Source: a virus
Length of the DNA: 28,927 nt
IMG/VR virus record: IMGVR_UViG_3300011270_000015
Location: 1-28,927 of that record
Reading direction: 5' to 3' (one strand)
Positions 11,559 to 28,517 of this stretch are shown here, piece after piece (position 1 is the first letter of the stretch; the number at the start of each line of letters is the position of its first letter). The position numbers and the translations under genes are program-made. Under the pieces are notes generated by a model that worked only from the letters and a program-made list of their open reading frames with translations, did no database searches and was not told where the DNA came from.

Positions 11559-11559
11559 T

Positions 11560-12848: not shown

Positions 12849-15268
12849 TGCCTCGTATTTCCTTCACCAACTTCAACCGTCGTCTGAACGTCGCCGGTGG
12901 CCGAGAGCAAGTACCGGAAGGGTCACTGCGACGCGCGCGCGGCGTCGCACCCGAACTAACTGGCTCGGTGCAGTCGATGTTTCCGCCATTGGTACTCTAT
13001 GGCATCAAGTCGCTGAACCTCATCCGTTTCAACGACAAGCGCTATCAATTCGATGGGAAGATTCTCTATAAGTTCGGCACACCGCTAACCAGCGGCTTCA
13101 ACGGCAATCGGGCGACGTTCGTCACGATGCCGCCCGCATCAGGCTTGCAGGATTACCTCTTCATGGCTGGCGCGGGAAAGCTGATTAAGGTCGCGCCCGA
13201 CGATACCGTCACGAACTGGGGCATAGATCGCCCGCCCGACCAACTTGCTGTAACCAAGGTCGCGCAGGACATCATCACGATCGATAATTTCGACTCGCAC
13301 GCGGCGAACTGGACTACGCATCTGTGTTCGCGTAGCGACGACAACACGGAGTTTCAGTTCGGCACGGGGAGTCTCAAGGTGACCCCTGCCGCACTCGCGC
13401 CACTGTGGTTTATCAATTCTACTGTCGGTTATCCGAAAGACCTGTCGAAGTATCCCAATGGCGATATTTCGCTGCCAACCGATTTAATCTCGCTGTGGGT
13501 GAGTTGCGACGTTCCAGCAAAGACGGTCTGGTTCTGGATCATGTTCGATGTGAGCGACGGCACGTTCAAGAACGACTATTACCTGGCCGTCATCCAGATC
13601 GTCACGAGCACGAACAACCCGAAGGCGGCCGGAGCAAATGCACTTATCCCGGTTGATAAGGACCGCTGGACGCAACTGACGCTGGCGAAAAGCGAGTTTC
13701 AGCGCATCGGCACGAAGCTAAACCTCGACTGGAGCAATGTCGTCGCCGTGCGTATCGAGGCGGGCGGTCCCGGCTCCATCCCGCCTAACCCCGTCGTCAA
13801 TCTCGACCAGTTCCAGATGATCGGCGGGCAACCTCTCGGGGTCGGTCCTGCTGCTACCAGGGGCGGCAGCGAGTACGAGTATTTCTCGACGTTTCTGAAT
13901 CTCGTGACCGGCAATCGCAGCAATCCACAGCCCGACTCGGCAAAGGTGTTCGGTGTCGCCTTGCAAGCGAACTCGCTGACGCAAATTCCAACCTCGGCCG
14001 ATCCGCAGGTTGGCGCGCGGGAGTTGTGGCGGACATCGGCGGAGAACTTCGGGGGATCACAGACCGCATTCATCCTCGATACGATCTACGACAACACGAC
14101 CACTACCTACAAAGATGTCACGGCCGACACTTCGATTCCGATCACGCAAACTCCGTGGGTCGCATCGTCGGCCTATATCCTCAACCAGCTCGTCGACGGG
14201 GGTAACGGCTACTATTTCAAGGTCACTGTGGCGGGGACGACTGGGGCGGCATCGCCGACGTGGCAGATCCCGCAATCGACGTGGGTTGCACTCGGCGCGT
14301 TTCTACTCAATACAACCATCGCGCCACGCGCCGCGGCCGGTCGCTTCTTCAAGGCGACCACGGCGGGCACCACTGGTCGCGTTCAACCTAACTGGGCAGC
14401 AGTCGCTGGTGGCGGAACCGTTACCGATGGGACTGTTGTATGGACCGACCAGGGCACACTCTCGACGGTAGACAATACCGTCACGTGGCTCTTCCAGGGC
14501 ATCAACTCCACGCCTGTGCTCGGGAATCAGGCGATCCAATTTGACAACATCAAGCCGTTCTCGACGATCGGCGACGCAGTGGGTCCGTGGCAAGGCTCGA
14601 TGGTCTGGACGCGGGACAGCGCAGCGGGCTCACGCGGCAATATCTATTTCTCGCCACCTGGACGCGCCGAGGGGATGGGCCTGTTCATCAACGTATCGAC
14701 CGATACCGACCCGACGCAGAAGGCGGTCATCTGGCAGGAGCAGCTTTTCCTCGTAACCGTGAACGCAATCTATCGGCTGGACGGCACTTATCCCAATATT
14801 GTGCCGCAGAAAATCTACGACCATTCCGGCTCGACCTTCCCGTTCACGATGGTCGCCGATAAGCGGGGCATCTACTATCGGGACCAGGACGCGATTCATG
14901 GGATGAACTATGCGGGCAACCCGATGGTGGGATTCGAGCAACTGGCGACGATTCTTCGCCATCAGCCCGCCGAGAACCTACCCGCCTTTCTGCCCACTTT
15001 CGCGGGGTTCGCACGAGAGGAAATCTACTGGTCGGATGAGACGCAGGTTACCCTCGCGATGAACCTCAATCCTGAGACGGGGCATGCGTGGCGCTCGTTC
15101 AACGTGGCAATGACCGCCATTTATTACGAGGAAGAGACGGGGGAGATTATCGCCAGTTGGAACGGTGTCACGGGGCTGTGGGAGCATCCAGATTTTACGA
15201 TCATCCCCGGCGACAATCTGCGGGTCAGTCAGGTGAGCATCGAGATCGCAATGCCGAATCTACCTTAA
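12848..15268 (+). CDS. Tail nozzle-like protein with two inserted sugar-binding-type modules (806 aa)
   Basis: The N-terminus (FNRRLNVAGGREQVPEGSLR) has the opening style of podovirus nozzle or stabilisation proteins, and the rest is beta-propeller-like, as in T7 gp12 and P22 gp10. Residues about 140-330 form a further beta-sandwich containing repeated W and D residues. Residues about 433-533 contain two tandem modules, each W-x-x-x-x-x-Y/F ... G-T-T-G-x-x-x-P-x-W, the pattern of small carbohydrate-binding modules often found in phage tails. The C-terminus returns to the propeller type (AVIWQEQLFLVTVNAIYRLD). It probably forms the distal tail tube. This call rests on pattern recognition, length and position. 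Confidence 0.65.
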   Translation: MPRISFTNFNRRLNVAGGREQVPEGSLRRARGVAPELTGSVQSMFPPLVLYGIKSLNLIRFNDKRYQFDGKILYKFGTPLTSGFNGNRATFVTMPPASGLQDYLFMAGAGKLIKVAPDDTVTNWGIDRPPDQLAVTKVAQDIITIDNFDSHAANWTTHLCSRSDDNTEFQFGTGSLKVTPAALAPLWFINSTVGYPKDLSKYPNGDISLPTDLISLWVSCDVPAKTVWFWIMFDVSDGTFKNDYYLAVIQIVTSTNNPKAAGANALIPVDKDRWTQLTLAKSEFQRIGTKLNLDWSNVVAVRIEAGGPGSIPPNPVVNLDQFQMIGGQPLGVGPAATRGGSEYEYFSTFLNLVTGNRSNPQPDSAKVFGVALQANSLTQIPTSADPQVGARELWRTSAENFGGSQTAFILDTIYDNTTTTYKDVTADTSIPITQTPWVASSAYILNQLVDGGNGYYFKVTVAGTTGAASPTWQIPQSTWVALGAFLLNTTIAPRAAAGRFFKATTAGTTGRVQPNWAAVAGGGTVTDGTVVWTDQGTLSTVDNTVTWLFQGINSTPVLGNQAIQFDNIKPFSTIGDAVGPWQGSMVWTRDSAAGSRGNIYFSPPGRAEGMGLFINVSTDTDPTQKAVIWQEQLFLVTVNAIYRLDGTYPNIVPQKIYDHSGSTFPFTMVADKRGIYYRDQDAIHGMNYAGNPMVGFEQLATILRHQPAENLPAFLPTFAGFAREEIYWSDETQVTLAMNLNPETGHAWRSFNVAMTAIYYEEETGEIIASWNGVTGLWEHPDFTIIPGDNLRVSQVSIEIAMPNLP

Positions 15269-15280
15269 AGGAGCGTGCGC

Positions 15281-15445
15281 ATGTGTTACCACGAATGGAT
15301 TCGCAACGTCTGCGAAGTGCTTCAGGCGGGAATCGATAGAGCCGAACCGACCGGATCGAACATTGAGCCTCGCGCCATCGTTTCTTTCAGCGTCGAGCTT
15401 CTACAGAAGTTGATCACCGAGGCGCCGGAGTCCGCACATGGCTAA
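15281..15445 (+). CDS. Small hypothetical protein (54 aa)
   Basis: The ORF starts MCYHEWIRNVCEVLQAGIDR with AAAGGAG about seven bases upstream and fills the gap after the nozzle-like gene. Its end overlaps the next start by eight bases. It is predicted helical with a mixed charge pattern. No family recognised. Confidence 0.55.
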   Translation: MCYHEWIRNVCEVLQAGIDRAEPTGSNIEPRAIVSFSVELLQKLITEAPESAHG

Positions 15446-15857
15446 TCAGGGCTATCCACTCGGACGACAGTACATACAGGGCGGAGGGGCAGCTACCTGG
15501 AATCCGACCGCTGACACCATCAAGGCGTGCTTAGTCTCCAACGTCTACGTGCCGAATCTCGTAACGGATCAATTTCTGAATAATCTCGGAACGAACCGCG
15601 TCGGCACTGATCAGACTCTCGCCGGCAAGGCCGTCACCAATGGGTTCCTGACTGCCACGAACGTGACGTTCCCTCTCGTCCCTGGCGGTTCGACGGTCGC
15701 TTTCCTTGTTGTCTATAAGCTCGTCGGCGGTGGTGGCGTTGGCGACAATACCTCGCCACTCATCGTGATCTGGGACACCATAGTCGGATGGCCGTTCGCC
15801 ACGGGCGGCACGGATGTCGTGATTGCTTGGAACGCCAGCGGTCTCTTCAGGGTCTAA
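15438..15857 (+). CDS. Phage structural protein of common small type (139 aa)
   Basis: The ORF begins MANQGYPLGRQYIQGGGAAT and shows a familiar order of segments: an early DTIKACLV, a central NVTFPLVPGGSTVAFLVVYK strand block, LIVIWD, and a C-terminal GTDVVIAWNASGLFRV. This small beta-rich protein type is frequent in phage tail regions. Its precise role is not known to me. Confidence 0.6.
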   Translation: MANQGYPLGRQYIQGGGAATWNPTADTIKACLVSNVYVPNLVTDQFLNNLGTNRVGTDQTLAGKAVTNGFLTATNVTFPLVPGGSTVAFLVVYKLVGGGGVGDNTSPLIVIWDTIVGWPFATGGTDVVIAWNASGLFRV

Positions 15858-15860
15858 CTA

Positions 15861-17129
15861 GTGCCTACTTACGATCCTGCGGTTCGCGCTGGCGGCGGCG
15901 GCTCGGTCGGCAACCTTGGCGCCACCTCGGCGGTTGTACCGAAACCGCCTAACACTGCCAACAACGACCTGATCAGAGTCGCCGGTAAGGTCGGAAATGG
16001 CGCACAGATCAATGCGCCGGATGGCACATGGACGCGTGTCAACGGCGTTGTTTCTAGTTATCAGGTATTTACGAAACGCGCGGGCGGTGCCGAACCGGCC
16101 AGTTATACCTTTACGTGGGATGGAAGCAACCAGCCGAATATCTTTAACAGTCTGGCCATCTATAGCCAGGGCGGCGGCACCATCAGCCTCGACACGGGAA
16201 CCCTCAGCGAGGTCGGCAGCGCCACTCAAAAGACCAGCGATGCCGTCACGCCGAGCAAGAATGCGCTAGTTCTGGTCAGCTATCAGGAATTTGTAATCAG
16301 CGAACCGGGTCCGCCGATCGGCCCCGGCGGGCTTACGCAAGTTCAGGCCGTTGGCGGCTTCGGTTCTCCTAGTATTTGGTCCGGCTACGTATATGTCCAG
16401 GCTGGAGTCAGCTCCGGCACGTTCATCGCATCGAATAATGGCGGCGATCCAGGTTCCAACTTTCACTGGAGTTCCGACACTCTCTCGCTGATTTCGAGCA
16501 TCGTCAATCCAGCAAGTCCGCCCTTCATCGATGACGAAGTGGTGTTCGCTCCTGCTACGTCACAGACTTTCCTACCGCCGTTTATCGACGACGAAGTGGT
16601 CTTCGCTCCGACTACCGGCATCGGCGCGATGCATACGACGACTGAGAACGCCGAGGTCGCTCTACAGGCAACCTCCGCCAGCACGCGCATGCGTGTCACC
16701 ACCGAGAACGCAGAACTCGCGATACAGCATCTGCTCAGCGCTACCAACCTGCGGATCACACAGATGACCGCCGAGATCGCGTTGCAGGCGCAACCGCCTG
16801 TCAGTCCCGTAGATTTCGAGATTCAGACGCCGGGGATCATCCGCGACAGTGCACAGCAAGAAACCGGCAACCGACTGCTCCTTGGGGTGAATTGCAACAT
16901 TTCGGGGGTGCCCCAGATCCTGACGCCGATCCTCATCATCGATGGCATCGAGTACACCTTGCCGCGCATCACGAGCATGTCTCGGGTGATTATCGATATG
17001 CCGATTCACGGATTCCACGGGCGCTTTTGGGAGGGTGTGCGGCTCACGGGACGGTTGACAGGCCGCGTCGAGGTCTTCCTGGTCGATATAAGCACGAAAC
17101 AGGGCGTGCCTAGCCCTCGCGCCGGATAA
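15861..17129 (+). CDS. Fibre-like tail protein with internal repeats (422 aa)
   Basis: The ORF starts at GTG three bases after the preceding stop. The N-terminal 200 residues are a beta-rich domain (YQVFTKRAGGAEPASYTFTW). Residues about 218-250 hold two copies of PPFIDDEVVFAP, period 19 residues. Residues about 260-310 hold three 20-residue units (TTENAEVALQ, TTENAELAIQ, MTAEIALQ). The C-terminal 110 residues form a globular end. Repeats followed by a terminal domain suit a receptor-contacting fibre. The function is inferred. Confidence 0.6.
   Translation: MPTYDPAVRAGGGGSVGNLGATSAVVPKPPNTANNDLIRVAGKVGNGAQINAPDGTWTRVNGVVSSYQVFTKRAGGAEPASYTFTWDGSNQPNIFNSLAIYSQGGGTISLDTGTLSEVGSATQKTSDAVTPSKNALVLVSYQEFVISEPGPPIGPGGLTQVQAVGGFGSPSIWSGYVYVQAGVSSGTFIASNNGGDPGSNFHWSSDTLSLISSIVNPASPPFIDDEVVFAPATSQTFLPPFIDDEVVFAPTTGIGAMHTTTENAEVALQATSASTRMRVTTENAELAIQHLLSATNLRITQMTAEIALQAQPPVSPVDFEIQTPGIIRDSAQQETGNRLLLGVNCNISGVPQILTPILIIDGIEYTLPRITSMSRVIIDMPIHGFHGRFWEGVRLTGRLTGRVEVFLVDISTKQGVPSPRAG
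16518..16610 (+). repeat. In-gene direct repeat, period 57 bp (19 codons)
   Basis: Two copies beginning CCGCC encode PPFIDDEVVFAP, at 16518 and 16575. DNA differs mainly at third codon positions, so the copies are under protein-level constraint or have diverged since duplication. Confidence 0.7.
16635..16790 (+). repeat. In-gene tandem repeat, period 60 bp (20 codons), three copies
   Basis: The GAG codon of the conserved AE pair recurs at 16653, 16713 and 16773, exactly 60 bases apart. The repeat gives TTENAEVALQ, TTENAELAIQ and MTAEIALQ. It probably forms a fibre shaft segment. Confidence 0.7.
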
Positions 17130-17146
17130 GGTGTAAGACGAGAGAC

Positions 17147-17323
17147 ATGAAGTTCGTACCTACGCGCGGACTGTGCTCCGGTTGTTATCCGCATCATGCT
17201 TCAGATGTTCACGAAGACCTTTGCTTGTGCGGCTGTCCGGGCGGGCGCGCTCCAATCACTGAGGAACAGGCACAGGACTTCGAGGACCGGATGACGACGG
17301 CTCTGGAGCGGAAGACTTCGTGA
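17147..17323 (+). CDS. Small cysteine-rich, zinc-ribbon-like protein (58 aa)
   Basis: This 58-residue ORF contains CSGC near residue 12 and CLCGC near residue 31, a spacing that could bind one zinc. The C-terminus is acidic and helical (EEQAQDFEDRMTTALERK). It ends in a GTGA overlap with the GNAT-like gene. No role is known, and a small zinc protein could mediate protein contacts. Confidence 0.5.
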   Translation: MKFVPTRGLCSGCYPHHASDVHEDLCLCGCPGGRAPITEEQAQDFEDRMTTALERKTS

Positions 17324-17877
17324 TTGCCTACGAAGGAAAATATGCCCCTCTTCTCGTTCAATGGTGGGCGGAACTCCAGAATAGCGGCGACTTTGCGAAG
17401 ACGGTTCACTCCTCGATCCGCGACCTTGATGCTTTTATCGGTTATTTTCGCGGTCCTGCTGCACTCATGTTTGAAGTCGACGAACGGGGTATCTGGTTCG
17501 CGGCTGCGGCCTCTCCATTTTTCGACGGTGCGCTCTGGGACGTTTGGATTCGCATCGACAAGCGGCATACCAAATCTGCGCTCAAGGCTATCGAGTTGTC
17601 CTACACGCTCGCGCTGGAGAAGTATCCGAGCCTGTTTGGATTCACGCAGCAGTCGGAGTTGCACGCCATTCATCTCAAACTCGGGTACGTCTACGCAGGA
17701 CGGTTGCTGAATAACATGGATGGGCAGACGCAGTACGTGTATCAGCTCACCCAATCTGCGTGGCTGGATCGAAAGCGCCTCACGAAAGCCATCCGCGACA
17801 GGAAACGGGAAGTGCGTGTGCTGGAGCGAGATATGAAACAAAGAGATTCGACGGCGCACCTCAACGGAGTAGCCTGA
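17320..17877 (+). CDS. GNAT-fold-like protein (185 aa), possibly internal virion protein
   Basis: The ORF starts with GTG at the GTGA overlap. The order of segments, an N-terminal helix with WW, a beta-hairpin AALMFEVDERGIWFAAAASP, WDVWIRIDKRH, a long helix, and IHLKLGYVYAGRLLNN near residue 120, resembles the GNAT acetyltransferase fold, in which GF/GY near the end precedes the last strand. T7-type phages have an internal virion protein (gp13) that I recall as having this fold, and this gene lies just before the ejection candidates. I see no clear acetyl-CoA pyrophosphate loop, so catalytic activity is doubtful. Confidence 0.5.
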   Translation: MIAYEGKYAPLLVQWWAELQNSGDFAKTVHSSIRDLDAFIGYFRGPAALMFEVDERGIWFAAAASPFFDGALWDVWIRIDKRHTKSALKAIELSYTLALEKYPSLFGFTQQSELHAIHLKLGYVYAGRLLNNMDGQTQYVYQLTQSAWLDRKRLTKAIRDRKREVRVLERDMKQRDSTAHLNGVA

Positions 17878-18074
17878 TGGAACCCAATATCCAGCTTCAC
17901 CGCCCAGACGGTTCATCGATCCTTCTCGAAGTGCGCTGCGCAAATGAGGATGATTTTTGGGAGTTCTGGGTAGTGATACAGAAAGGATGGGACGGTCCAG
18001 GATACGGCAGAACCTTCTCCTGCGATTTTGATAAACCAGGGCGGCCATTCACGGGTCTTGACGGAGCATTCTGA
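17877..18074 (+). CDS. Small hypothetical protein (65 aa)
   Basis: The start overlaps the GNAT-like gene stop (TGATG) and the end overlaps the next ATG in the same way. It starts MEPNIQLHRPDGSSILLEVR and is acidic with aromatic residues (DDFWEFWVVIQKGW). Unrecognised. Confidence 0.5.
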   Translation: MEPNIQLHRPDGSSILLEVRCANEDDFWEFWVVIQKGWDGPGYGRTFSCDFDKPGRPFTGLDGAF

Positions 18075-18298
18075 TGGACGACGACCGACCCGGTGCCTTC
18101 AGTGTTTTATCGCGCACATTTCGGCAGAGCTTACTCCTGCACAACGGCATGGAGGGCGATCGGATCGGAGAACATAATCTTGCATTCCTGGCGCGGCTCG
18201 TGATGGAAGGCTGGGCGTTCCATGATTCGCGCGGCGTATGGCTTACACCCTTGGGTGTCCGCGAATTAATTAAGTCGGTTCGCGAGGAGCAACCCTGA
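18074..18298 (+). CDS. Small hypothetical helical protein (74 aa)
   Basis: The ORF overlaps both neighbours with TGATG. It contains HNLAFLARLVMEGWAFHD and then VWLTPLGVRELIKSV, which has the look of a winged-helix-like segment. A DNA-binding role is possible but unsupported. Confidence 0.5.
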   Translation: MDDDRPGAFSVLSRTFRQSLLLHNGMEGDRIGEHNLAFLARLVMEGWAFHDSRGVWLTPLGVRELIKSVREEQP

Positions 18299-18849
18299 TG
18301 CCATTCGGCGGCGGCAGTAGCAGCACGAGTTCGACCAATTCGCCCTGGGCGGGACCGCTCGGCAATATGGGCAAGTCAGCGTGGAAGATTGCGCAGCCAC
18401 TGATGTCTACGCTCGGCTCACAGTTCCTCGAAGCGTTGAAGACTGGCGGTGTAAACTCGTTCATTCCGTGGATCAACCGCGCTGTAGACGCGAGCCGGAT
18501 GTCAGCATCGAAGGGTATCGAAGGGCTGCGGCAGAATCTTGCGCGGAGCGGACAGGGCAATAGCGCCTTTGGCGAAGCTGAATTGTCGGAAGCGAATATG
18601 CAGGCGGGCAATCAAGTCGCCAATACACCCGAAGAGATGATCATGAGTTTCATTCAGGGAGCCCCAGGTTTTGCCTTGGGAACCGGCAAATTGGCTGAGG
18701 GCGCGATGGGGATGGCTGGTGGGTTACAGAATACAAGCACGACGCAGAATCAGCCGGGGTTCTGGGATTTGTTCATGCAGAGTATGCAGATGGGTAGCCA
18801 GATAGGAGCCAGCGCTGTCGCGCCCGCTCCCATGTTTGCGCACCCGTAG
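18298..18849 (+). CDS. Internal virion (ejection) protein candidate (183 aa)
   Basis: The N-terminus is Gly/Ser-rich (FGGGSSSTSSTNSPWAGPLG), followed by amphipathic helices rich in Ala, Met, Gln and Gly (IEGLRQNLARSGQGNSAFGE). This composition is shared by phage ejection proteins that must unfold and leave the capsid. It is the first of several such genes ending with an SLT-domain protein. The assignment is by character and order. Confidence 0.5.
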   Translation: MPFGGGSSSTSSTNSPWAGPLGNMGKSAWKIAQPLMSTLGSQFLEALKTGGVNSFIPWINRAVDASRMSASKGIEGLRQNLARSGQGNSAFGEAELSEANMQAGNQVANTPEEMIMSFIQGAPGFALGTGKLAEGAMGMAGGLQNTSTTQNQPGFWDLFMQSMQMGSQIGASAVAPAPMFAHP

Positions 18850-18859
18850 GGAATCAATC

Positions 18860-19960
18860 ATGGCAGGTGCACTTCTAGGTCTAATCAGCGGCGGCGCGCT
18901 CGCATACGCAGCCGGAAAAATGGGCGAGCACGAGCAGCAGAAGCAGCAGGACCGACAGCTCGAACAGAAAACGCTGCACGACATCATTCTTGATCCGTCC
19001 AGTCCGAGTTTCGATCCGACAGCCGTCCATAATCCGCACTTCGAGAAGCGTCTTAGGAAAGCCTACGACAACAAAGAAGTGGCCGATACCCTGATGTTTG
19101 CAGCTAGGGGCCTGTCCGCCGGTAAGCAGCGCGAGCAGCAGGCATTTCACGCACAGCTAGGCCAACTGATCATGGGCAAGGCTGGCGGTCAGGGGCCGCA
19201 AGAGCCCGGTGGTGCGCCGTCCCCTGTGACGCCGAGTCCGTCGTCCGCTGGTGGCATGCTGTCGGCCTCAGCGCCCAGCGCTGGGCCTGGACCTACGCCC
19301 GGTCCGCGCCCCGCTGCGAGCCCCGAGCAGGCTGCGCCTGACGCTCCAGTCGCACCGCTGGATTTCTCCAAGCAGATTGATAGCTTGCGTCGACAGCAGA
19401 TAACGGCGTCTGGGAACCCCGACCTCAGCGACGAGCATAAAAAGGCGGTGGGGGATTTTTACGAGAAGCTCATCAAGGACAAGTTCGAGGAATGGAAGGC
19501 GTCCGCGAGTACCAAGGAAGAGAAGGCTGCGGTCGCAGCCGCCGAGACTACAGCACGTGAGCACGCCAAGCTCGCCCCAGACATCACGGCGGGTCGAGAG
19601 GCTGCCGCCGGTAGGGTGGCGACCTCTAGGGCGCGTGCGAGCCTATCTGTCGCTGGCTCTGCCGAAGCGATGGATGTGCTCAAGCGGAAGCACGATATTA
19701 CCGCTGGCGGCAAGTCTGGATCGGCAGAGACTGAACGCAAGAAGCGGATCGATGTGGTGACGGCGCTCGGCAACCAGTACGACAAGGAACACCCCATCGC
19801 ACGGCTCAGTCCGCTCGGGTCCGGCGATGCTCGCAAGAAATACATCCGTGATGCGCTCGGCGGTATTGACCCGGAAGCTTACCTTCAGGGTGAGGGCACC
19901 GCAGACCCATCGACCGATCCGGCGACTTCAGTGGCCGACAAATACTTCCCGAAAAAGTAA
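18860..19960 (+). CDS. Internal virion (ejection) protein candidate (366 aa)
   Basis: I start at ATG 18860, with AGGGA about seven bases upstream. A TTG at 18836 would overlap the previous gene. The N-terminus has a short hydrophobic Ala/Gly segment (LLGLISGGALAYAAG), then a Gln-rich helix, a Pro/Ala/Ser-rich linker at about 115-175, and a long charged helix region at about 190-290. These features match large ejection proteins. The next gene starts directly after its stop and carries the SLT domain. Confidence 0.5.
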   Translation: MAGALLGLISGGALAYAAGKMGEHEQQKQQDRQLEQKTLHDIILDPSSPSFDPTAVHNPHFEKRLRKAYDNKEVADTLMFAARGLSAGKQREQQAFHAQLGQLIMGKAGGQGPQEPGGAPSPVTPSPSSAGGMLSASAPSAGPGPTPGPRPAASPEQAAPDAPVAPLDFSKQIDSLRRQQITASGNPDLSDEHKKAVGDFYEKLIKDKFEEWKASASTKEEKAAVAAAETTAREHAKLAPDITAGREAAAGRVATSRARASLSVAGSAEAMDVLKRKHDITAGGKSGSAETERKKRIDVVTALGNQYDKEHPIARLSPLGSGDARKKYIRDALGGIDPEAYLQGEGTADPSTDPATSVADKYFPKK

Positions 19961-21013
19961 ATGGCCGCTCGCCCCGAGCTGATTGATGCCGTAATTCGGC
20001 AAGAATCTGGGGGACGCTCGAATCCGCCCGATGCGGGCAGGGGGGCCGTGGGTCTCATGCAGATCGAGCCTGCCACGGCGAGGGCTTACGGCTTCGATCC
20101 TTCTCGTCTGCACAATCCGGCGTACAATCGAATGGCGGGCACCGCCATCCTTACGAGCCTCGTCGACGAGCACAAAGGTAATGAACGCGAAGCGCTCAAG
20201 TCGTACTATGGTCGCGGCAAAGCTGGGAAAGGCATGCCGACCACGGATGAATACGCTGATAAGGTATTGAAGATGGCTGGTTCCCCGACAAGTTCAGGAA
20301 CACCGATGCAGCGAATGATCGCCGATCCTGGCTTCGCCAAGATGAATCAGCCGCAAATGTACGACGCGGTTATGGCGGGGCTGGAAAGATCGGAACCGGG
20401 ATTTACCACCAAAGACCCTGCTTTTAAGCATCGCGTCGCAACGGAGATTCTGACGCGCGCGGGCAAACTCAAGACTGGGACTGCGCTTCAGGGTGGGGGC
20501 GGCGAACTACGCAAGCCGCTTCCCGGCGCCGTTGAGTTCGGTGAGAATTATGTGGCACCAGCCGTCGCGGGTACGGCGGGAGCATTAGGTGGTGCCGCGG
20601 TGGGTGGAGCTGTCGGTGGCCCACCGGGCGCAGTAGCGGGCGGCGCTGCGGGCGCGGGCGTCGGGGTGGCAGCCGCCGACTATCTTTCCGCGCGCATCAA
20701 TAAAACGTTCTTCGGTCGCAATCCCGACCTGTCGTGGCCGAACGTCGCTAAGAACGAGGCCGTCAATGCCGCCATCGGCGCTGCCAGTGAGCTGATTCCG
20801 GTTGGCCGGGTCGCAGGCAGTATCGTGGGTATCAATCCGCTGCTAGAAGGCGCCGGGCTCGCTCAGCAAGAAGCCGCGGAGCCGCTGAACGATTCGGCGA
20901 ACAGCAGGAGGCCAGTGGCCAGGCCCGTTTGGCGGCTGGCGTTGGGGCGCGCGACAAGACGGCGCAGGCACTCGCACCCGAGGCGCGCGGTCAGGCGATT
21001 CAGCAACGGCTAG
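19961..21013 (+). CDS. SLT-type lytic transglycosylase domain of ejection protein (350 aa as read)
   Basis: Residues 10-70 form an SLT domain: IRQESGG with catalytic-type Glu15, GAVGLMQIEPATARAYG, and NPAYNRMAGTAIL. The domain cuts peptidoglycan for DNA entry, as in T7 gp16. A Gly/Ala-rich linker (about 200-240) follows. From about residue 307 the reading turns into an Arg-rich stretch (RRPVARPVWRLALGRATRRR) that looks like off-frame sequence, while the frame used by the next ORF gives plausible protein (AAERFGEQQEASGQARLAAG). A missing base near 20881 would join both into about 868 residues, with the SLT domain at the N-terminus. Confidence 0.65.
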   Translation: MAARPELIDAVIRQESGGRSNPPDAGRGAVGLMQIEPATARAYGFDPSRLHNPAYNRMAGTAILTSLVDEHKGNEREALKSYYGRGKAGKGMPTTDEYADKVLKMAGSPTSSGTPMQRMIADPGFAKMNQPQMYDAVMAGLERSEPGFTTKDPAFKHRVATEILTRAGKLKTGTALQGGGGELRKPLPGAVEFGENYVAPAVAGTAGALGGAAVGGAVGGPPGAVAGGAAGAGVGVAAADYLSARINKTFFGRNPDLSWPNVAKNEAVNAAIGAASELIPVGRVAGSIVGINPLLEGAGLAQQEAAEPLNDSANSRRPVARPVWRLALGRATRRRRHSHPRRAVRRFSNG

Positions 21014-22569
21014 GGCGTACAGCACGGCAAGGGGCTCAGGCGCGCGCAACGCCGGCCGAACAGGTTGGGAAGGCTGCGCTACCGAGCGAGGAGACCATAG
21101 ATCGTCAGCAGCAATGGGGCGATGCTGTGTTCAATCCGATCCATCGCGCCTCGAATGAACTCGGCCATAAGTACGAGACTTTATTCGCGGGAGTCAAAAC
21201 GAAGCCGATTCAAGATACCGATGCGATCAAGAGCAAGGTCGCCCAGATCGCTCAGTTTGGACAAGACACGGGACATTCGCCGGGGCCGCAACTGCGCGGA
21301 CTGATGCAACGCGCCGACGCTCTTGCCGCTCCCAAGCCGGTGGATATTGGAGCCATGCTCAAGAGTAAGAAAACGCTCTCGATGAGCAATGAAGAATGGG
21401 CGGCACTTAAACAGCGCATGTCCACGGGTGACACCAGCGGCGGCACGCCCGCAAATATTCAGAGTTTGCTCGGCTTGCGAAGTGATGCTCTTGGCCTTAT
21501 TCGGGGCGGAGCATCGCCTCGCGACAAATCGGCGGCTTTCGATTTGATCGAAGGCATAGACAGCACTCTTGAGAATTCGGGGTTGGTCGATAAGAACCAA
21601 TTGACTGCCATCAATCGGCGCTACGGGTCATACCGCCGCACATTCGATACTTCGTTCCGTCGTAAGATCGCAGGCGAGTTCGAGCCGACCGACGCAGCGG
21701 GCGACATCTTCGGATCACCGCAACGCATCGAGCAAATCTGGAAGGGTGCGACCGACGAAGAGAAATCGACGCTGCGCGGCACTTACGCGGACTGGCTCCT
21801 GAAGAACGGCGTCGACAAGGCTCCGGGCATAATGAAACAGGAGGACCAGCAGCAGGTACTTCAGAAACTCTATCCCGGCACCCCGCTTGCTGACCCTGCG
21901 AATTGGGTTCACCTCGAAGACAAACTCGTCAGCGCCGAGAACGTGATGAATACGTCACCACAGTTGCGCCAGGAATTCCAGAAGCAGATGGCAGCTCGCC
22001 TAACAGAGATTCGGACTGAGGCGGCGGGTGAGGCGGTCAAGTGGGCACAGAAAGAAGCGAAGAATCTCGGACCCTACGGTGAGGCGATGGCCAAACAAGC
22101 GCGACTCGCCAGAACGCCGGAAGAGGGCGCACAGGTCGTCATGGATTTTATGAAGCGTCATCCCGAGAACGCAGCCATCGAATCCTTGATGTCGGGGCGG
22201 GTTGAAGAAGGGGCCATCGGCAAATCACTGAAGGCTCGCGTCTTGCGCGGATTGACCTGGTATCCGGAGATTCTCGTCGCCACCAGCCTCATGGGTCATC
22301 CGAGCATGTTCGCAGCCGCAGGCTTAGGAATCGGAGCGATCACCGGCGTCCACGGCGGGATGCAATATCTGGTGAAGGCGGCGCTCAAAAACCCTAGGAA
22401 TGCACAGATGCTTTGGGAAGCGGCCAATAGCGGGAGCGCTCCGATTCGTAGTCGCATCCTCGGCAGAATGTTAGCAGACGCGGTGACCGCGGACGCGGCA
22501 GCGGGCTTGCAGCGAAAAGCCGGCACGTCCCTCAAGCAGCAGGGAGAAGAGCAGCCTACGTCAGAGTGA
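20929..22569 (+). CDS. Ejection protein, downstream part after apparent frameshift (546 aa as read)
   Basis: As read, the only start is TTG 20929, without a ribosome site and inside the preceding ORF. The frame is meaningful further upstream, to about 20878, so I think this is the C-terminal two thirds of the SLT protein, shifted by one base. The sequence is helical and charged with Ala- and Gln-rich stretches (about 1-60). A hydrophobic stretch near the end (about 430-480: WYPEILVATSLMGHPSMFAA) may be membrane-active. It ends at the convergent boundary with the leftward operon. Confidence 0.6.
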   Translation: MAAGVGARDKTAQALAPEARGQAIQQRLGRTARQGAQARATPAEQVGKAALPSEETIDRQQQWGDAVFNPIHRASNELGHKYETLFAGVKTKPIQDTDAIKSKVAQIAQFGQDTGHSPGPQLRGLMQRADALAAPKPVDIGAMLKSKKTLSMSNEEWAALKQRMSTGDTSGGTPANIQSLLGLRSDALGLIRGGASPRDKSAAFDLIEGIDSTLENSGLVDKNQLTAINRRYGSYRRTFDTSFRRKIAGEFEPTDAAGDIFGSPQRIEQIWKGATDEEKSTLRGTYADWLLKNGVDKAPGIMKQEDQQQVLQKLYPGTPLADPANWVHLEDKLVSAENVMNTSPQLRQEFQKQMAARLTEIRTEAAGEAVKWAQKEAKNLGPYGEAMAKQARLARTPEEGAQVVMDFMKRHPENAAIESLMSGRVEEGAIGKSLKARVLRGLTWYPEILVATSLMGHPSMFAAAGLGIGAITGVHGGMQYLVKAALKNPRNAQMLWEAANSGSAPIRSRILGRMLADAVTADAAAGLQRKAGTSLKQQGEEQPTSE

Positions 22570-22630
22570 TGTAGATTCCCTCGAACTCTTCGTCCTCGGT
22601 CATCTTCGCAAGGCAGAGCGCCGCACACAT
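22556..22630 (-). CDS. Possible 24-aa peptide after the ATP-grasp gene
   Basis: An ATG in a TGATG overlap with the ATP-grasp stop opens 24 codons, MCAALCLAKMTEDEEFEGIY at the start. It runs 14 bases into the end of the convergent ejection gene. Coupling supports it, but length and overlap make it uncertain. Confidence 0.3.
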   Translation of the reverse strand: MCAALCLAKMTEDEEFEGIYITLT

Positions 22631-23901
22631 CACCAGTCGACTCCATAGGATTGTCCCTTCTCGATCATCTCTTCGATCTGCTCGAACACATCGTGCTTGA
22701 AGGTTAGTTGGTCGCCCTCGATTTCTTTGGCGATGTCGAGGCATTCCTGTTTGACTTTCTCCAGGTCGTCGCCAGTGGTGACCACCGACACCACCTGCTC
22801 GACGTTATGCGGGAGCGTCCAGTATTCGCCGTCGTCGTCGCGGTAGAAGTAATACAGCAGGATGTTGTCGCGCAACTCTTCCGGGAAGCGGACGTGCATC
22901 GGGTGCTCTTTGGCCCACGGGGAGGAGAGCATTAGTTGGCAGCAGAACTTAGCGCGATAATCGGGGAATGGGGATATGCCCCGCGACCCACCGTCGATAA
23001 TCGGTGCGAGATTCTTACAAAGCTTCTGATGGGCGCCATCCCCAGGGCGCGGCATCCGGCACGTGGCGTCGATAAAATAACACAGTCCCGATTCGGTCAC
23101 GCGCATCTCCCCGCTGAAGAAATTTGTGTAAGGTTCTTCTGAGGATAGTGCTCGCGTTACCGCATCAAGTGATTCGGCCATACAATCGGGCTCACCCTCG
23201 ATTATCGTTGAGATTAGGCCACGATCTTTATCTTCATAGCCGAGCAGCATCGGAGTAAGAATGCTCCCATTCATGACGATCAGGTCTATCCCCGGCTCGA
23301 CGCTATCGCCTTCGATGGGTTCCTGGAGCATGAAGCGGATCTTGTCGCCGGCGGGACCGACCGTGTGGGCTAAGTCATCGAACCAGGAGCGCGACGCGGG
23401 CCAGCCTTTGTGCTCATAGGTTTCCGTGGCACCGCGATAATACTGGGAGAGCTTGATAAACCTGCGCTCATCCCGCCACCCGTCATGCTCGCTTAAGGCG
23501 TGGCGCAAGCTATCAATGCCATTTATCGTAACTGCATCGGCAACTGGCAGTCCCGCGTCCTTCATTAGTTTGTGAAGTTTCCATCGATCCAATTCGAGCA
23601 ATTCGCCAGGACCGGAGCCCCACACGTTCTTGCCCATTGCGCGCAGATGCTGCTGCCAGTCGGTGAAGTAGAGATCGGGGAAGACCCAGATGTCAGGCTC
23701 GTCGGGCGAGTCGAGCAAGGACCAGGGGAAGTCGATTCTCTTTACGCCTTCGTCTTCGAGGCCAGTGCCGAGCATAGTCGCCTTGGGCTCGGCGAAGGAT
23801 GAGACCCAGGGCGAGAAGTACCCGACCTCGCCGTCGAGATCGCGGGCGAGCAGGCGCGCGAGTTCGATAGTCAGACCGTAATCGACGACGAGGGCTTTCA
23901 A
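22630..23901 (-). CDS. ATP-grasp family protein (423 aa)
   Basis: ATP-grasp enzymes join a carboxylate to an amine or thiol using ATP. Here DRWKLHKLMKDAGLP (about 105-119) and FIKLSQYYRG (148-157) provide the two Lys-containing ATP-contacting segments, MLQEPIEG (about 191-198) the hinge, and FIDATCRMPRPGDG (about 276-289) the Mg-binding end with its Asp and Arg. The N-terminus (KALVVDYGLTIELARLL) is a Rossmann-like preATP domain, as in glycinamide ribonucleotide synthetase. The substrate is unknown. Start: TTG 23901 overlaps the upstream stop as TTGA and has GGAGG nearby; a longer reading would overlap that gene by 100 bases. Confidence 0.6.
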   Translation of the reverse strand: MKALVVDYGLTIELARLLARDLDGEVGYFSPWVSSFAEPKATMLGTGLEDEGVKRIDFPWSLLDSPDEPDIWVFPDLYFTDWQQHLRAMGKNVWGSGPGELLELDRWKLHKLMKDAGLPVADAVTINGIDSLRHALSEHDGWRDERRFIKLSQYYRGATETYEHKGWPASRSWFDDLAHTVGPAGDKIRFMLQEPIEGDSVEPGIDLIVMNGSILTPMLLGYEDKDRGLISTIIEGEPDCMAESLDAVTRALSSEEPYTNFFSGEMRVTESGLCYFIDATCRMPRPGDGAHQKLCKNLAPIIDGGSRGISPFPDYRAKFCCQLMLSSPWAKEHPMHVRFPEELRDNILLYYFYRDDDGEYWTLPHNVEQVVSVVTTGDDLEKVKQECLDIAKEIEGDQLTFKHDVFEQIEEMIEKGQSYGVDW

Positions 23902-24233
23902 TTCTTCCTCCCGCTCTGATAGATGGTCGCGACAATCTCCCGCGAGGCGAGCATCTGTTCCTTCGTCGCAGGCATCCAATTGCCGCAGTCGCAAATGTTC
24001 AAGTCCTCAGGATCGTGATTCTTCACATCGAGGCCGGGGAGCGTCGAGTCGCGGCCATGTAGGAGCCAGACGGTGCCGTCGTCGTGGAAGACCTGAATCC
24101 AGAAATGCCCGCCCATGATGTCTTTGTGGCAGGTCAGGCCGGAGTGAGCCTCGGCAGTAGTCTGCGCCGCGAGCGGCAGTCCGCCGATGAACTTGGCGTA
24201 GGCGAGGCGCTGTTCGGCCGTTATCTCGGGCAT
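23898..24233 (-). CDS. Hypothetical protein (111 aa)
   Basis: I start at ATG 24233 in a TGATG overlap with the terminase nuclease stop. A GTG one codon earlier is possible. The protein starts MPEITAEQRLAYAKFIGGLP and has a beta-rich middle (GGHFWIQVFHDDGTVWLLHG) and a pair of cysteines in ICDCGNW. No family recognised. It is coupled to the ATP-grasp gene through TTGA. Confidence 0.55.
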   Translation of the reverse strand: MPEITAEQRLAYAKFIGGLPLAAQTTAEAHSGLTCHKDIMGGHFWIQVFHDDGTVWLLHGRDSTLPGLDVKNHDPEDLNICDCGNWMPATKEQMLASREIVATIYQSGRKN

Positions 24234-24904
24234 CACTTCATCTCCGCCTGTGCGAATGCGGCAACAACGCGCTCTTCGATCTGAGCCTCGGTCAGCCGCA
24301 GCGTCCTCAGATAGTTGCGATACTGCTGGACTTCGCCGGTCACTTCGTCGTTGGTGTGGCGCGCGGGTAAGAGCTTAATCGCCCCCGCCAGAGCATCGAG
24401 AATATCCTTGAACTGAGAGCCGGGAAAGGCTTCCCATTCGCCGCGCAGGTCGCTCATATCAGTGAGAGCAAAGATGCGGCCGGCCGTCGCGGCGGGCTGG
24501 AGTGTCGTCTCGATGCGCACGTCCTTGTCGGAGCCGAGGGTGATTTTGGTGAGCGGGAGTTTCTTGCCCTTCTCGCGAGCCTCGCGGATGAGGGAGTCGG
24601 CAAAGAGGGACTGGTTCGCGGATGAGTCGATGCCGATGGTGGCGGGATGGAAGTCGCTATAGGTTTTGAAGATTTCGTCGCAGAGTTCGTCGGTCGTGCA
24701 GTGCCGCGCCCATGCCTTGCGGATGAAGATGCGGTCGATATCGTCCTGCGAGACCACCACGATGGCCGAGCGGGAGCGGTAGTTGGCGCTGCGCGACTTG
24801 TTGGCGTGACCGGGGACGCGACCGCCGGCCGAATCGACGAAGCCCACTGTGTAGAGGGTCAGGAGCGGGATACGGATGGTGAGGGTGTCATTCATTCGTG
24901 CCAT
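24233..24904 (-). CDS. terL: Terminase large subunit, nuclease domain only (223 aa)
   Basis: The protein looks like the RNase H-like nuclease half of a large terminase, which cuts the DNA concatemer during packaging. Three acidic positions fit the metal site: Asp24 in VGFVDSAGG, Asp93 in IGIDSSANQ, and Asp167 or Asp170 in FKDILDALAG. In ordinary terminases it follows the ATPase in one chain. Here the ATPase is a separate gene about 480 bases upstream. I start at ATG 24904; ATG 24895 is also possible and neither has a clear Shine-Dalgarno site. The short preceding gene overlaps the start. Confidence 0.65.
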   Translation of the reverse strand: MARMNDTLTIRIPLLTLYTVGFVDSAGGRVPGHANKSRSANYRSRSAIVVVSQDDIDRIFIRKAWARHCTTDELCDEIFKTYSDFHPATIGIDSSANQSLFADSLIREAREKGKKLPLTKITLGSDKDVRIETTLQPAATAGRIFALTDMSDLRGEWEAFPGSQFKDILDALAGAIKLLPARHTNDEVTGEVQQYRNYLRTLRLTEAQIEERVVAAFAQAEMK

Positions 24905-25100
24905 CAATCAGATGATACGTTTCGTACCCCGCAATGAAACTGAGCCGTATGGGTCGTATATTTAATTCAGCGGCCACCTGACGTATCTGTTGTGTGGTCA
25001 GCTCACCAAAGAGAAAGCCATAAAGGACAGCTTCTTGCAAAGCACGGAAATTCAATTCAGCCATCCTCGTTCCCTCGCTTCGTTGCGGCGCCGCATTCAT
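24888..25100 (-). CDS. Small protein between terminase halves (70 or 58 aa)
   Basis: ATG 25100 overlaps the previous stop (ATGA); ATG 25064, twelve codons in, has GAGGGA six bases upstream and may be the true start. The conserved-looking body is AELNFRALQEAVLYGFLFGE followed by LTTQQIRQVAAELNIRP, helical, with a possible short helix-turn-helix. The function is unknown. It lies between the ATPase and nuclease genes and overlaps the latter. Confidence 0.5.
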   Translation of the reverse strand: MNAAPQRSEGTRMAELNFRALQEAVLYGFLFGELTTQQIRQVAAELNIRPIRLSFIAGYETYHLIDGTNE

Positions 25101-25387: not shown

Positions 25388-26638
25388 TCAATTCAGTAGG
25401 CCCCGCTCTTTAGCTTCATTTCGTCGCCGCGCAAACAATTCAGTGAGGCGCACCCAAGTCGCTGAACCCTCGTCCTGCGCGCGCACCTTGCGTTCCATCC
25501 GTGCGAGCAGGCGCTGTTCGTGTTGCTCCTCACTCTCATCGTCATCCCAGCCTTTGCGCGGGTAGAGCCGATCTAGGCTGATACCGCGTTGAAATTCAGT
25601 ACGCCGGGTCCAGTAGGCGGACGTGAACTTACCGCCGGCGACCATCCGATCTGCGGCGCGCACGTCGGCGTCGTCCTTGTCGAAGACGATGAAGCCGTTT
25701 TTGATCTCGTAGGTGCGGACTTCCGCCCAGTCGAGCGCGGAGAAGGACGCGTTCAGCGGGTTGTTCATGTAGTTGGCGCTAAACAGCACTTTGCCCATGC
25801 CCTCCTCTTCCTGGAGGGCGAGTAGTGCTTCGAGAGGATAGCGCTCGGGCCAGATGGGTTTGCCGTCTTCGATCGCGGCACGGATGTTGACTGCCACGGT
25901 CGGGTCTTTTTTCCATTCCACGTACACGTCGTTGGCGGTCCAGTGAGTGCCGATGCCGACTTCGATGGAGCGAGTGAGGTCGTTGAGGCGTGAGCGGAGC
26001 GATTTGCGGCGCATCTTGGCGCGGTTCATCACGACTTCGGAGAGTGCCGCCTCGAAGCAGGCGATGTCGTCGATGATGATCAGGTCGTAGTGGCGCTGTT
26101 CGAGGGCAGTGCCGACACCAATAGCCGTGATGCTAGGTTCCGCAATGCCGATTCGCTTACGATGTACTGTGATTCGGTCTTCACCCCAAACCCCGCCGCT
26201 AGCAACAGCATCACGTCGGGGGTCACTAAAAAATACTTCCTTCCAGAGATGACGCAGCAGGTGGTTGCCTTCAAGGTGTTGTCTAATGACTGACAGATTT
26301 TCGGTCGCTTTTGGGGTTGTTTCGCCATGTAGCAATATCCTCGTATCGCAGCCGGGCATGCCTTTGAATAGTAAGTTGTTCGATGCGGGCTGAATCAGCG
26401 ACCAGATGGGGAAGGCATGAGAGCCGATGGTGGTTTTAAGGTGTACCACGGGTAACATGAGCAGTTTGCGACGACTAATAGCTGTGTCTTGCAGCCAATT
26501 ACAGACTGGATGATGCAGATGCTCCGACAGGTCGGGCATGCCAAGCACAAAACGGGCGAGCATGTAGAGACTTCGCTCGCAGCGGGCCTTACGCCGCCAG
26601 AAATTCCTTAGTCTTTGGAATGCGCGCAAGATCGCCAT
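25388..26638 (-). CDS. terL: Terminase large subunit, ATPase domain only (416 aa)
   Basis: This is the motor half of the DNA packaging terminase. Residues 59-72 read LLMLPVVHLKTTIG, a Walker A variant like the PRGHLKTT form of many phages. DLIIIDD (about 185-191) is Walker B with the catalytic acid, and GTHWTANDVY (about 231-240) is the coupling motif. Around residue 300 the NYMNNPLNASFSALDW segment marks the end of the ATPase region, where a nuclease would normally begin. Instead, about 100 charged residues follow (DDDESEEQHEQRLLARMERK) and then a stop. I chose ATG 26638, which overlaps the upstream gene by 50 bases, because RCERSLYMLARFVLG belongs to the family pattern. ATG 26573 would lose it. 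Confidence 0.7.
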   Translation of the reverse strand: MAILRAFQRLRNFWRRKARCERSLYMLARFVLGMPDLSEHLHHPVCNWLQDTAISRRKLLMLPVVHLKTTIGSHAFPIWSLIQPASNNLLFKGMPGCDTRILLHGETTPKATENLSVIRQHLEGNHLLRHLWKEVFFSDPRRDAVASGGVWGEDRITVHRKRIGIAEPSITAIGVGTALEQRHYDLIIIDDIACFEAALSEVVMNRAKMRRKSLRSRLNDLTRSIEVGIGTHWTANDVYVEWKKDPTVAVNIRAAIEDGKPIWPERYPLEALLALQEEEGMGKVLFSANYMNNPLNASFSALDWAEVRTYEIKNGFIVFDKDDADVRAADRMVAGGKFTSAYWTRRTEFQRGISLDRLYPRKGWDDDESEEQHEQRLLARMERKVRAQDEGSATWVRLTELFARRRNEAKERGLLN

Positions 26639-26876
26639 AGCCGCCCCACCGGAGTCGTTTGCGGAGTTCTTCAAGCTCGGCTTTTGAGAGTCCTTCATCG
26701 GTGGTTTTCTTCTCAACTGCCGCATCGACCCTAGCAATCGGCTGGCGAGAGGGCTTGAGCAGCTTCTTCTTGCAGTCGTCACAGAGCCGCGGCGGCCGGC
26801 CCGTGCTCTCGAACGTGAACGGCTTCTCGCAGTTCGCGCATGTGGCAGACTGTGCGGCTTTGAGAACGCCCTTCAT
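26589..26876 (-). CDS. Zinc-ribbon protein upstream of terminase ATPase (95 aa)
   Basis: Residues about 12-38 hold CANCEKPFTFESTGRPPRLC and then DDCKKK, i.e. CxxC and CxxC separated by about 17 residues, a classic zinc ribbon. The remainder is a charged helix (SKAELEELRKRLRW). The start is ATG 26876 in ATGA overlap with the two-TM gene. Its position directly before the ATPase gene is where a small terminase might be, but the size and fold are unlike usual small terminases. DNA-end recognition is a possibility only. Confidence 0.6.
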   Translation of the reverse strand: MKGVLKAAQSATCANCEKPFTFESTGRPPRLCDDCKKKLLKPSRQPIARVDAAVEKKTTDEGLSKAELEELRKRLRWGGYGDLARIPKTKEFLAA

Positions 26877-27111: not shown

Positions 27112-27372
27112 CTAGTTGTGGGCCTCGATGGGATAACTGCTGTACGCGTTGCGGATTAGCTCGGCGATCTCTGTCGGCGTACCGCGCACCAGCATGGATT
27201 GCTGGACGATTTGCCCATCTGGTCGCACGGCAAAGCCGCCACCAAAGATAATCGCCGAGTGACTGAGTAGTGGTTGCTTCGAGTTCGGGTCCATGGCTTG
27301 GCCGATATATAAAATAGTGTCGGTGTTTACGATCACAGTAGAACCATCGGCACCTTTAAGTGTCAGCAGCAT
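27112..27372 (-). CDS. Small hypothetical protein (86 aa)
   Basis: The ATG has GGAGGAAGA immediately upstream, a strong ribosome site. The protein is mixed alpha/beta: MLLTLKGADGSTVIVNTDTI, IFGGGFAVRPDGQI, then a helix TPTEIAELIRNAYSSYP. It has the look of a small protein domain with no active-site motif. Function unknown. Confidence 0.55.
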   Translation of the reverse strand: MLLTLKGADGSTVIVNTDTILYIGQAMDPNSKQPLLSHSAIIFGGGFAVRPDGQIVQQSMLVRGTPTEIAELIRNAYSSYPIEAHN

Positions 27373-27478
27373 TCTTCCTCCACCGTGCTTGTGCGGCCTT
27401 CTTCGCCTGCTCCCGGCTCGTCATCGTCTTCGGACATCGGTGTGCGCGACCGCACTTCCGACAGTGGACCAGCTTCAC
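27356..27478 (-). CDS. Small basic cysteine-containing protein (40 aa)
   Basis: GTG 27478 overlaps the stop of the upstream gene (GTGA). It encodes MKLVHCRKCGRAHRCPKTMT at the start and a Lys/Arg/Ala helix at the end, with CxxC plus a third Cys that may bind zinc. It overlaps the next gene by 17 bases. Small size keeps confidence modest. Confidence 0.45.
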   Translation of the reverse strand: MKLVHCRKCGRAHRCPKTMTSREQAKKAAQARWRKNAADT

Positions 27479-27642
27479 GTTGCGCACGCGCCGCGTTCGA
27501 TAGCCAGAGCCTCGCTGACAGACTCACCACAGGTGTGGCAATACCACTGAGCCCATGTCTCGGGGCCGGTCTGCTCAGCAGGATGTTTCGCGCAGTCAGG
27601 AACGCGGCAATAGCGGATGTCGGGGTGTTCGCACATAGCCAT
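27475..27642 (-). CDS. Small zinc-ribbon-like protein (55 aa)
   Basis: The frame contains CEHPDIRYCRVPDC and YCHTCGE, six cysteines and histidines spaced like a zinc ribbon. The start is uncertain: ATG 27642 (used here), ATG 27636 and ATG 27660 are all in frame and none has a clear Shine-Dalgarno site. It overlaps the next gene through GTGA. Together with the neighbouring cysteine-rich genes it forms a small zinc-protein cluster ahead of the terminase. Confidence 0.5.
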   Translation of the reverse strand: MAMCEHPDIRYCRVPDCAKHPAEQTGPETWAQWYCHTCGESVSEALAIERGACAT

Positions 27643-27997
27643 GCTCAATATCACGAGCATCCCGCATTTGTCTACGGCAAAAATATATTTCGCGCGGGGA
27701 CTGACATTCAGCAGTATATACACACGGGGGCCTGGGGGTTCTACCGGGGGTGTCGGATCGAAGGAGGGAGGACATTGAAGGACAGAGACGCCAGCGCCGC
27801 AGCACAATTGCCACGGCGTCAGCGTATAGCGAAGGAGTGTGGAGATGAACAGGTCCGAGCTTAGCGTCGCCAGATCGACGCGTCAAGCGCAGTGACACGG
27901 ACAATAAGACGGACAATCTCGTTCAGTGAAGCAGAATAGTCATTGACGCTGCTGAGCTATTAGTCAGAGCGCCGCTGATTGAGTATCAGCCGGTCTA
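27643..27997. other. Non-coding, regulatory-looking stretch
   Basis: No convincing gene occupies these bases; ORFs crossing them in both directions lack ribosome sites or protein-like composition. The stretch contains three runs of five G (27726-27750) followed by a GGAGGGAGG segment, an AT-rich patch near 27685-27720 with possible -10 sequences (TATACT on the minus strand), and a 9-bp direct repeat (27897-27917). It leads to the parS site. It probably holds the leftward promoter of the small-gene/terminase operon, not resolved. Confidence 0.45.
27897..27917. repeat. Direct repeat ACGGACAAT, two copies, 12-bp period
   Basis: ACGGACAAT occurs at 27897-27905 and 27909-27917, separated by AAG. 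Spacing near one DNA helical turn suggests a protein-binding site on one face, about 80 bp from parS. Confidence 0.5.
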
Positions 27998-28013
27998 TGT
28001 TTCACGTGAAACA
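27998..28013. promoter_or_regulatory. parS: Exact bacterial parS (ParB-binding) site
   Basis: The sequence TGTTTCACGTGAAACA is a perfect 16-bp palindrome and is identical to the chromosomal parS consensus bound by ParB/Spo0J in many bacterial phyla. A chance match to a fixed 16-mer in a window of this size is about 7 in a million with equal base use. It lies between the leftward 76-aa gene and the cysteine-rich/terminase genes, outside coding sequence. No ParA or ParB gene is in the window. Host ParB binding is the direct prediction. What the phage gains from it is unknown. Confidence 0.85.
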
Positions 28014-28015
28014 AG

Positions 28016-28035
28016 TCACTTGCGCTCACTTGCGC
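28016..28035. repeat. Tandem 10-bp direct repeat TCACTTGCGC
   Basis: Two perfect copies, 28016-28025 and 28026-28035, start three bases after the parS site. The second overlaps the stop codon of the leftward 76-aa gene. Confidence 0.6.
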
Positions 28036-28256
28036 TCTAGTAGGCGTGCGTTGAAGCCTGTGGTGCGATCGGCACTCTCACTCAGCAGAGCCTCAAGTCC
28101 AGCAATGCGAGTCTCTAAGGCTCTTAAGCCGTGCCACACCGTTAGATGCGGTCCAGATTCCTTCCAACGCCTGATAGCGAGCGCACGCATGAACCTAGAA
28201 CGCTCGATAGCATCTACGTTTTTCCACCGCATACGGGCCATTTCAGAAGCGGTCAT
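28026..28256 (-). CDS. Small basic protein with RW repeats (76 aa)
   Basis: From ATG 28256 the sequence starts MTASEMARMRWKNVDAIERS and continues RFMRALAIRRWKESG. The repeated MARxRW / AIRRWK units resemble small phage and bacterial proteins with paired basic-aromatic helices that are suspected to bind DNA. A C-terminal helix (LRALETRIAGLEALLSESAD) could dimerise. A longer in-frame start exists at 28340 but would run through the divergent promoter. It is transcribed away from the RHH gene, so the two probably share a regulatory gap. Confidence 0.5.
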   Translation of the reverse strand: MTASEMARMRWKNVDAIERSRFMRALAIRRWKESGPHLTVWHGLRALETRIAGLEALLSESADRTTGFNARLLERK

Positions 28257-28304
28257 TATCGTGCACGCTAGCGAGCTGACGTTGCGAATGCAAGGCGGTG
28301 GAAC

Positions 28305-28333
28305 TTGACATTTCAACAACTCTGTCCTATTTA
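28305..28333 (+). promoter_or_regulatory. Probable sigma70-type promoter for the RHH gene, with candidate operator
   Basis: A perfect TTGACA (28305-28310), a 17-base spacer and TATTTA (28328-28333) form a promoter whose predicted start point is about base 28340, at or beside the ATG of the RHH gene. TTGACATTTCAA at the -35 box is a near palindrome and could be an operator for autoregulation. Confidence 0.55.
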
Positions 28334-28340
28334 TACGCAC

Positions 28341-28517
28341 ATGACATCACATCAACTCACAAATGGCATTATCATTCATGCGACTCTTGAGAAGAAGATG
28401 GATGAAATAATTATTAAATTGGCGAAGGGGGAAAACCGGAGCAAATCCAATATGATTCGGCAATTATTAGGAGAGGCGATAGAGGCTAGAGAGAAGAATC
28501 GACATGATGAGCCTTGA
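28341..28517 (+). CDS. Ribbon-helix-helix (Arc/CopG-type) regulator (58 aa)
   Basis: The protein has an N-terminal strand IIIHATLE (about 10-17), helix MDEIIIKLAKG, the turn ENRSKSN, and helix MIRQLLGEAIEAREKN, the order and length of RHH DNA-binding proteins. These act as dimers whose strands insert in the major groove; typical roles are repressor or partition/copy-control protein. No ribosome site precedes ATG 28341, and the promoter places the transcript start almost on it, so translation is probably leaderless, as for lambda cI. A TTG at 28305 would lie within the -35 box. The gene is noticeably more AT-rich than the structural genes. Confidence 0.65.
   Translation: MTSHQLTNGIIIHATLEKKMDEIIIKLAKGENRSKSNMIRQLLGEAIEAREKNRHDEP

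Follow-up and report, generated by a model that had tools for sequence, protein, structure and literature searches.

A perfect parS palindrome upstream of a phage terminase operon as a candidate loading site for host ParB

The window analyzed here is an entire IMG/VR record, a linear stretch of 28,927 bases without end repeats that is probably a fragment, and its composition is continuous at about 56% GC. Upstream of a leftward operon containing the terminase genes is a non-coding gap that holds a perfect 16 bp palindrome. The features of this region are as follows.

24233–24907, minus strand: terminase large subunit, nuclease part, as its own gene (phrog_38, E 1.8e-20, profile positions 561–718 of 760)
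25388–26782, minus strand: terminase large subunit, ATPase part (phrog_38, E 2e-32, profile positions 266–525 of 760)
26589–26876, minus strand: small leftward-operon gene whose end overlaps the longest terL frame (positive codon score; no family match)
27112–27372, minus strand: small gene of the leftward operon (positive codon score; no family match)
27475–27642, minus strand: small Cys-rich protein gene, the first leftward of parS (profile match to phrog_22461; start codon at 27642 inferred)
27643–28025, no strand: parS-containing non-coding gap upstream of the terL operon, which runs leftward (no coding signal in any frame)
27998–28013, no strand: parS, perfect palindrome TGTTTCACGTGAAACA (exact match)
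28016–28035, no strand: tandem repeat, two copies of TCACTTGCGC at 28016–28025 and 28026–28035, overlapping the stop codon of the neighboring ORF
28026–28256, minus strand: small ORF with a weak coding signal (from the ORF list; codon score about neutral; no PHROG or Pfam match)
28341–28517, plus strand: gene for a CopG/Arc-type ribbon-helix-helix protein (PF01402 above its curated threshold, E 6e-6; phrog_3431, Arc-like repressor)

The palindrome at 27998–28013 is identical to the 16 bp chromosomal-type parS consensus TGTTTCACGTGAAACA as quoted in PMC10197239, and the first-pass annotation was correct in naming it so; it is present as a single exact copy, with no second site in the window at up to three mismatches. 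The number expected by chance in the window is 3e-6 from base composition or 4.5e-6 from a first-order Markov model, close to the earlier estimate of about 7e-6. The earlier description of a non-coding gap beside direct repeats also holds, with no coding signal in the gap and a 10 bp duplication as the repeat; a mechanical ORF on the plus strand (27979–28308) covers parS, with a poorer codon score than the ORF antisense to it. The same description had placed the site between divergent small genes, which is wrong: parS lies 13 bp past the stop of the leftward ORF 28026–28256, about 355 bp upstream of the leftward gene 27475–27642 and about 1.2 kb upstream of terL, so that its two flanking genes are codirectional, and the divergent gap is at 28256–28341, away from parS. 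We found no promoter adjoining the window parS, and no intrinsic terminator, tRNA or Rfam family in its region. A stable hairpin followed by a U tract was not seen, and the fold z-score is 0.04; with no terminator and no Rfam match, we discarded a terminator or other RNA element as the identity of the site.

No phage isolate matches the window closely at the DNA level, and searches of viral contigs with TerL, MCP and portal recovered only two relatives, contig L126 (MCP 78% identical), which is the nearest, and the distant contig L136 (MCP 38%). A scan of the genome and its relatives for further copies, as proposed in the first-pass annotation, gave the one site in the window and none in L126 or L136, neither of which covers the window's parS region; L126, a fragment of 15 kb, stops short of it. 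Among 60 more distant MCP-family loci in genome contigs (738 kb) there was no site at up to two mismatches, and membership of the MCP family was accordingly rejected as a predictor of parS. One member of the family, the pelagiphage HTVC027P, does have a site with one mismatch, and in another, an Alcaligenes phage, the palindromic variant TGTTCCACGTGGAACA lies upstream of the gene for the terminase nuclease. That no close relative covers the parS region would leave room for a chance match, or for a chimeric assembly that joins host DNA here, which had been raised as a concern from the outset. However, the expected count is a few millionths, the GC content is continuous, and no host origin-region gene adjoins parS, which is accompanied instead by the terL operon, small phage-type ORFs and the ribbon-helix-helix gene; we regard chance or chimerism as extremely unlikely.

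The comparison with L126 also bears on the arrangement of the window's other genes. The large terminase appears to be split, with the ATPase and nuclease parts matching separate stretches of phrog_38 and two small ORFs between them; the nuclease part is 52% identical to its L126 counterpart. Head-region genes and portal come straight after the nuclease gene in L126; in the window they are set apart from it by some 14 kb (10240–24230), consisting mostly of plus-strand tail genes. An ORF of 454 aa on the minus strand at 22630–23994 resembles an ATP-grasp-type enzyme by eye and has no Pfam or PHROG match.

We then asked how often the 16-mer occurs in phages, using as controls two palindromes of the same composition as parS, one of which retains the CACGTG core. 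The exact 16-mer is present in 286 of 50,697 isolate phage records, which include related records and so do not represent as many independent origins, and the control palindromes are found in 0 and 0. It is also present in at least 120 IMG/VR stretches, compared with 1 and 5 for the controls. The isolate BLAST matches fall at 824 places, equivalent to about 412 sites because a palindrome is counted on both strands; a 16-mer has an E-value of 8 against the limit of 10 used, and these are counts of exact matches with no homology claimed. Near-sites in carrier genomes are mostly parS-like variants (such as TGTTTCACGTGGAACA and TGTTCCACGTGGAACA), and a reversed control pattern gave no matches in the same genomes at up to two mismatches. 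These comparisons of sequence suggest that the parS 16-mer is a genuine, non-random site in phages, occurring far beyond chance.

An alternative interpretation is that a phage regulator, such as the ribbon-helix-helix protein encoded about 330 bp from parS, uses the palindrome as its operator, and that the likeness of the palindrome to parS is coincidental. We consider this very improbable; the exact 16-mer appears repeatedly in phage groups that are unrelated and, as far as seen, share no such gene, its variants are themselves parS-like, and the control palindromes are absent from the isolates.

By name, the isolate records with the site are mainly from phages of Listeria (87), Microbacterium (49), Arthrobacter (29) and Gordonia (25); no other group exceeds 20 records, Bacillus and Lactobacillus having 11 each. 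The carriers span Pecentumvirus, Harbinvirus, Woesvirus, Jesfedecavirus, phi29-like phages and an inovirus. Escherichia and Klebsiella phages contribute no more than six carrier records each, among at least 338 and at least 448 records in the collection, and enterobacteria are not known to have a chromosomal ParABS. A correlation with the host, such that carriers are rare where chromosomal ParABS is missing, is only suggestive, since Mycobacterium phages (at least 466 records in the collection) carry the site equally rarely.

Most carriers have one site per genome, and some have clusters of three to six. Several individual arrangements are of interest in their own right. The inovirus bajarodino virus 6 has six exact parS copies in a filamentous genome of 5.9 kb, and eight bajarodino records have parS. 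In the T5-like Vibrio phage phi 3, parS and a one-mismatch variant are found at 821, 2934, 109190 and 111303, near both ends of the genome, and the left copies, next to the pre-early genes A1/A2, fall inside the annotated terminal repeat. In the phi29 relatives B103 and Chedec 11, exact parS either adjoins gene 16, which codes for the packaging ATPase, or is one gene before it.

Proximity to packaging genes (terL, or gene 16 in the phi29-like phages) and the clusters of sites could point to a different role, in which replicated phage copies draw ParB away from the host origin, or SMC is loaded by ParB and compacts phage DNA for packaging. One site per genome, the usual case, would however make a poor decoy early in infection when set against several sites on the chromosome, and a role for SMC would be conjectural; we view both forms as improbable.

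In the first parS sample, 72 of the 138 sites not at contig edges are intergenic as defined with a simple ORF caller, compared with about 13% of random positions. TerL is encoded by 11 of the 52 genes directly downstream of intergenic sites and the remainder are varied; these TerL cases come mostly from one clade. The apparent link to the TerL family in this sample is in part an artefact of the family's spread, as it is represented in 2,715 isolate records. Because the family is so widespread we gathered a separate sample of relatives of one marine TerL, chosen by TerL alone so as to avoid selection on parS, and retained the 40 members with at least 74% TerL identity and enough upstream sequence. 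The site is present in 18 of the 40, a proportion that may overstate its share in the wider family because parS carriers made up most of the query alignment, and it is exact in 17 of the 18. In 17 of these 18 it lies 31–142 bp upstream of terL, and in the other it is 1,064 bp upstream. A terL sister group at 60–65% identity has the exact site in 0 of 28 members, so the trait is patchy.

We aligned 17 copies of the site, 16 from the marine clade and one from a 68% relative, and found 99.6% conservation of the site against a mean ungapped identity of about 33% in the 40 bp flanks. As the copies were picked for having the site, the informative part is the divergence of the flanks around a palindrome whose position is nearly fixed. 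This conservation is the strongest evidence for selection on parS, as judged from aligned sequences, and it concerns a phage group other than that of the window.

The carriers rarely appear to have a ParB of their own. ParB_N was found in none of 49 records, of which 47 are IMG/VR carriers and two are pelagiphages; such absence is weaker evidence in the IMG/VR records, many of which are fragments. Among 19 named phages the domain is present in a single one, Microbacterium phage Quhwah, and missing from the other 18. A ParA-like AAA_31 domain was found in 0 of 21 records, and a tyrosine integrase in three of 35. The window contig, probably incomplete, has no ParB_N (PF02195), HTH_ParB (PF17762) or ParA-like (PF13614) domain; the first-pass claim that ParB is missing thus stands for the 28.9 kb contig only. 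The idea that the window is a phage-plasmid with its own ParABS is likewise unsupported; judged from the contig, the phage has no self-contained ParABS.

Extrachromosomal mycobacterial prophages encode their own ParAB, unlike the window contig, in which none was detected. The two are alike in that phage DNA has parS-type sites (PMC7157519, for the prophages). A closer parallel is the reported trapping of the phi29 genome in spores through host Spo0J (PMC9437464, citing Meijer et al. 2005), in which a virulent phage exploits a host ParB. The phi29 relatives B103 and Chedec 11 have exact parS copies and no ParB_N, and the window similarly combines a parS-type site with no ParB_N in the contig; phi29 nonetheless belongs to a different phage group. 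SGI1, which uses the ParABS of IncC plasmids through parS mimics (PMC10954446), is alike in being a mobile element that has the parS of another replicon and exploits that replicon's ParAB, but there the ParB is plasmid-encoded and the element integrative, whereas the window has the chromosomal consensus in a phage. The window site is parS-type by sequence, and by analogy with phi29 and Spo0J it may work in the same way. We found no description of chromosomal-type parS in ParB-less phages as a general feature in the open-access literature searched.

The explanation that we favor, and to which we give about even credence, is that the window 16-mer is a selected parS that loads host ParB onto the DNA of a phage apparently without its own, most likely for partition or positioning. 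Host chromosomal ParB would bind the phage parS during infection, close as a CTP clamp and slide over several kb of phage DNA, and the host would then treat the phage genome like an origin region. In the use that we judge most likely, host ParA would partition or position the phage genome in delayed or non-productive infections, as reported for phi29 and Spo0J, and, as a by-product, ParB that spreads across the terL operon close by may damp down late genes. Binding, spreading and benefit are what we infer here, from a site that is present, non-random in phages and accompanied by a lack of detectable ParB and ParA domains. Use through host ParB, as originally proposed for this site, has good indirect support from the enrichment over control palindromes, the intergenic bias, the near-absence of phage ParB and the marine-clade footprint, whichever of the proposed purposes (segregation, persistence, regulation, decoy) applies. 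Partition or positioning is placed first because the positions of the sites are too varied across phages for one regulatory role.

The main rival is local control, in which ParB would slide from parS into the region that holds the promoter of the leftward terL operon and keep late genes down at low phage copy number; replication would then multiply parS, dilute ParB over the copies and release the late genes, so that the system acts as a copy-number timer. The window parS heads the terL operon, the marine-clade sites are near -10-like TATAAT motifs as well as close to terL, TerL recurs among the downstream genes, and in Pseudomonas aeruginosa ParB-parS represses or silences promoters next to parS, according to PMC5521831. 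The P. aeruginosa system is comparable in that a chromosomal-type parS is bound there by ParB, but there parS is chromosomal and origin-proximal, and the genome encodes parAB. Against this, sites elsewhere adjoin varied genes (tail, portal, endolysin and, within a terminal repeat, pre-early genes), one clade supplies most of the 11 TerL cases, and the window parS is at some distance from terL with no promoter found next to it. We consider local control rather unlikely, although the division between it and partition is a judgement and not a result. It is difficult to see an obvious benefit of segregation to a lytic phage, given that 32 of 35 records are without a tyrosine integrase, and parS near terL would fit local regulation at least as well as partition or positioning.

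More broadly, and with confidence a little short of even, capture of host ParB through a perfect parS may be a common and repeatedly acquired strategy of phages, lytic ones included, of which the window phage would be one case; in some lineages the site may have become fixed at the head of packaging operons, linking late-gene timing or genome position to ParB supply. If so, a single 16 bp site would connect many phages that have no partition genes to the segregation machinery of the host, with consequences for phage persistence, late-gene timing and phage interference with host chromosomes. Use of host ParB is directly testable, as several named carriers have culturable hosts, including Lactobacillus phage Bromius, Bacillus phages B103 and Chedec 11, Gordonia phage Woes and Listeria phage P100.

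A further motif was seen in the marine TerL clade, where GGGNCCC or GGGNNCCC is present in 34 of the 40 members within 145 bp around the terL start; about 0.19 occurrences are expected per 145 bases, and the motif is possibly a cos/pac or translation signal.
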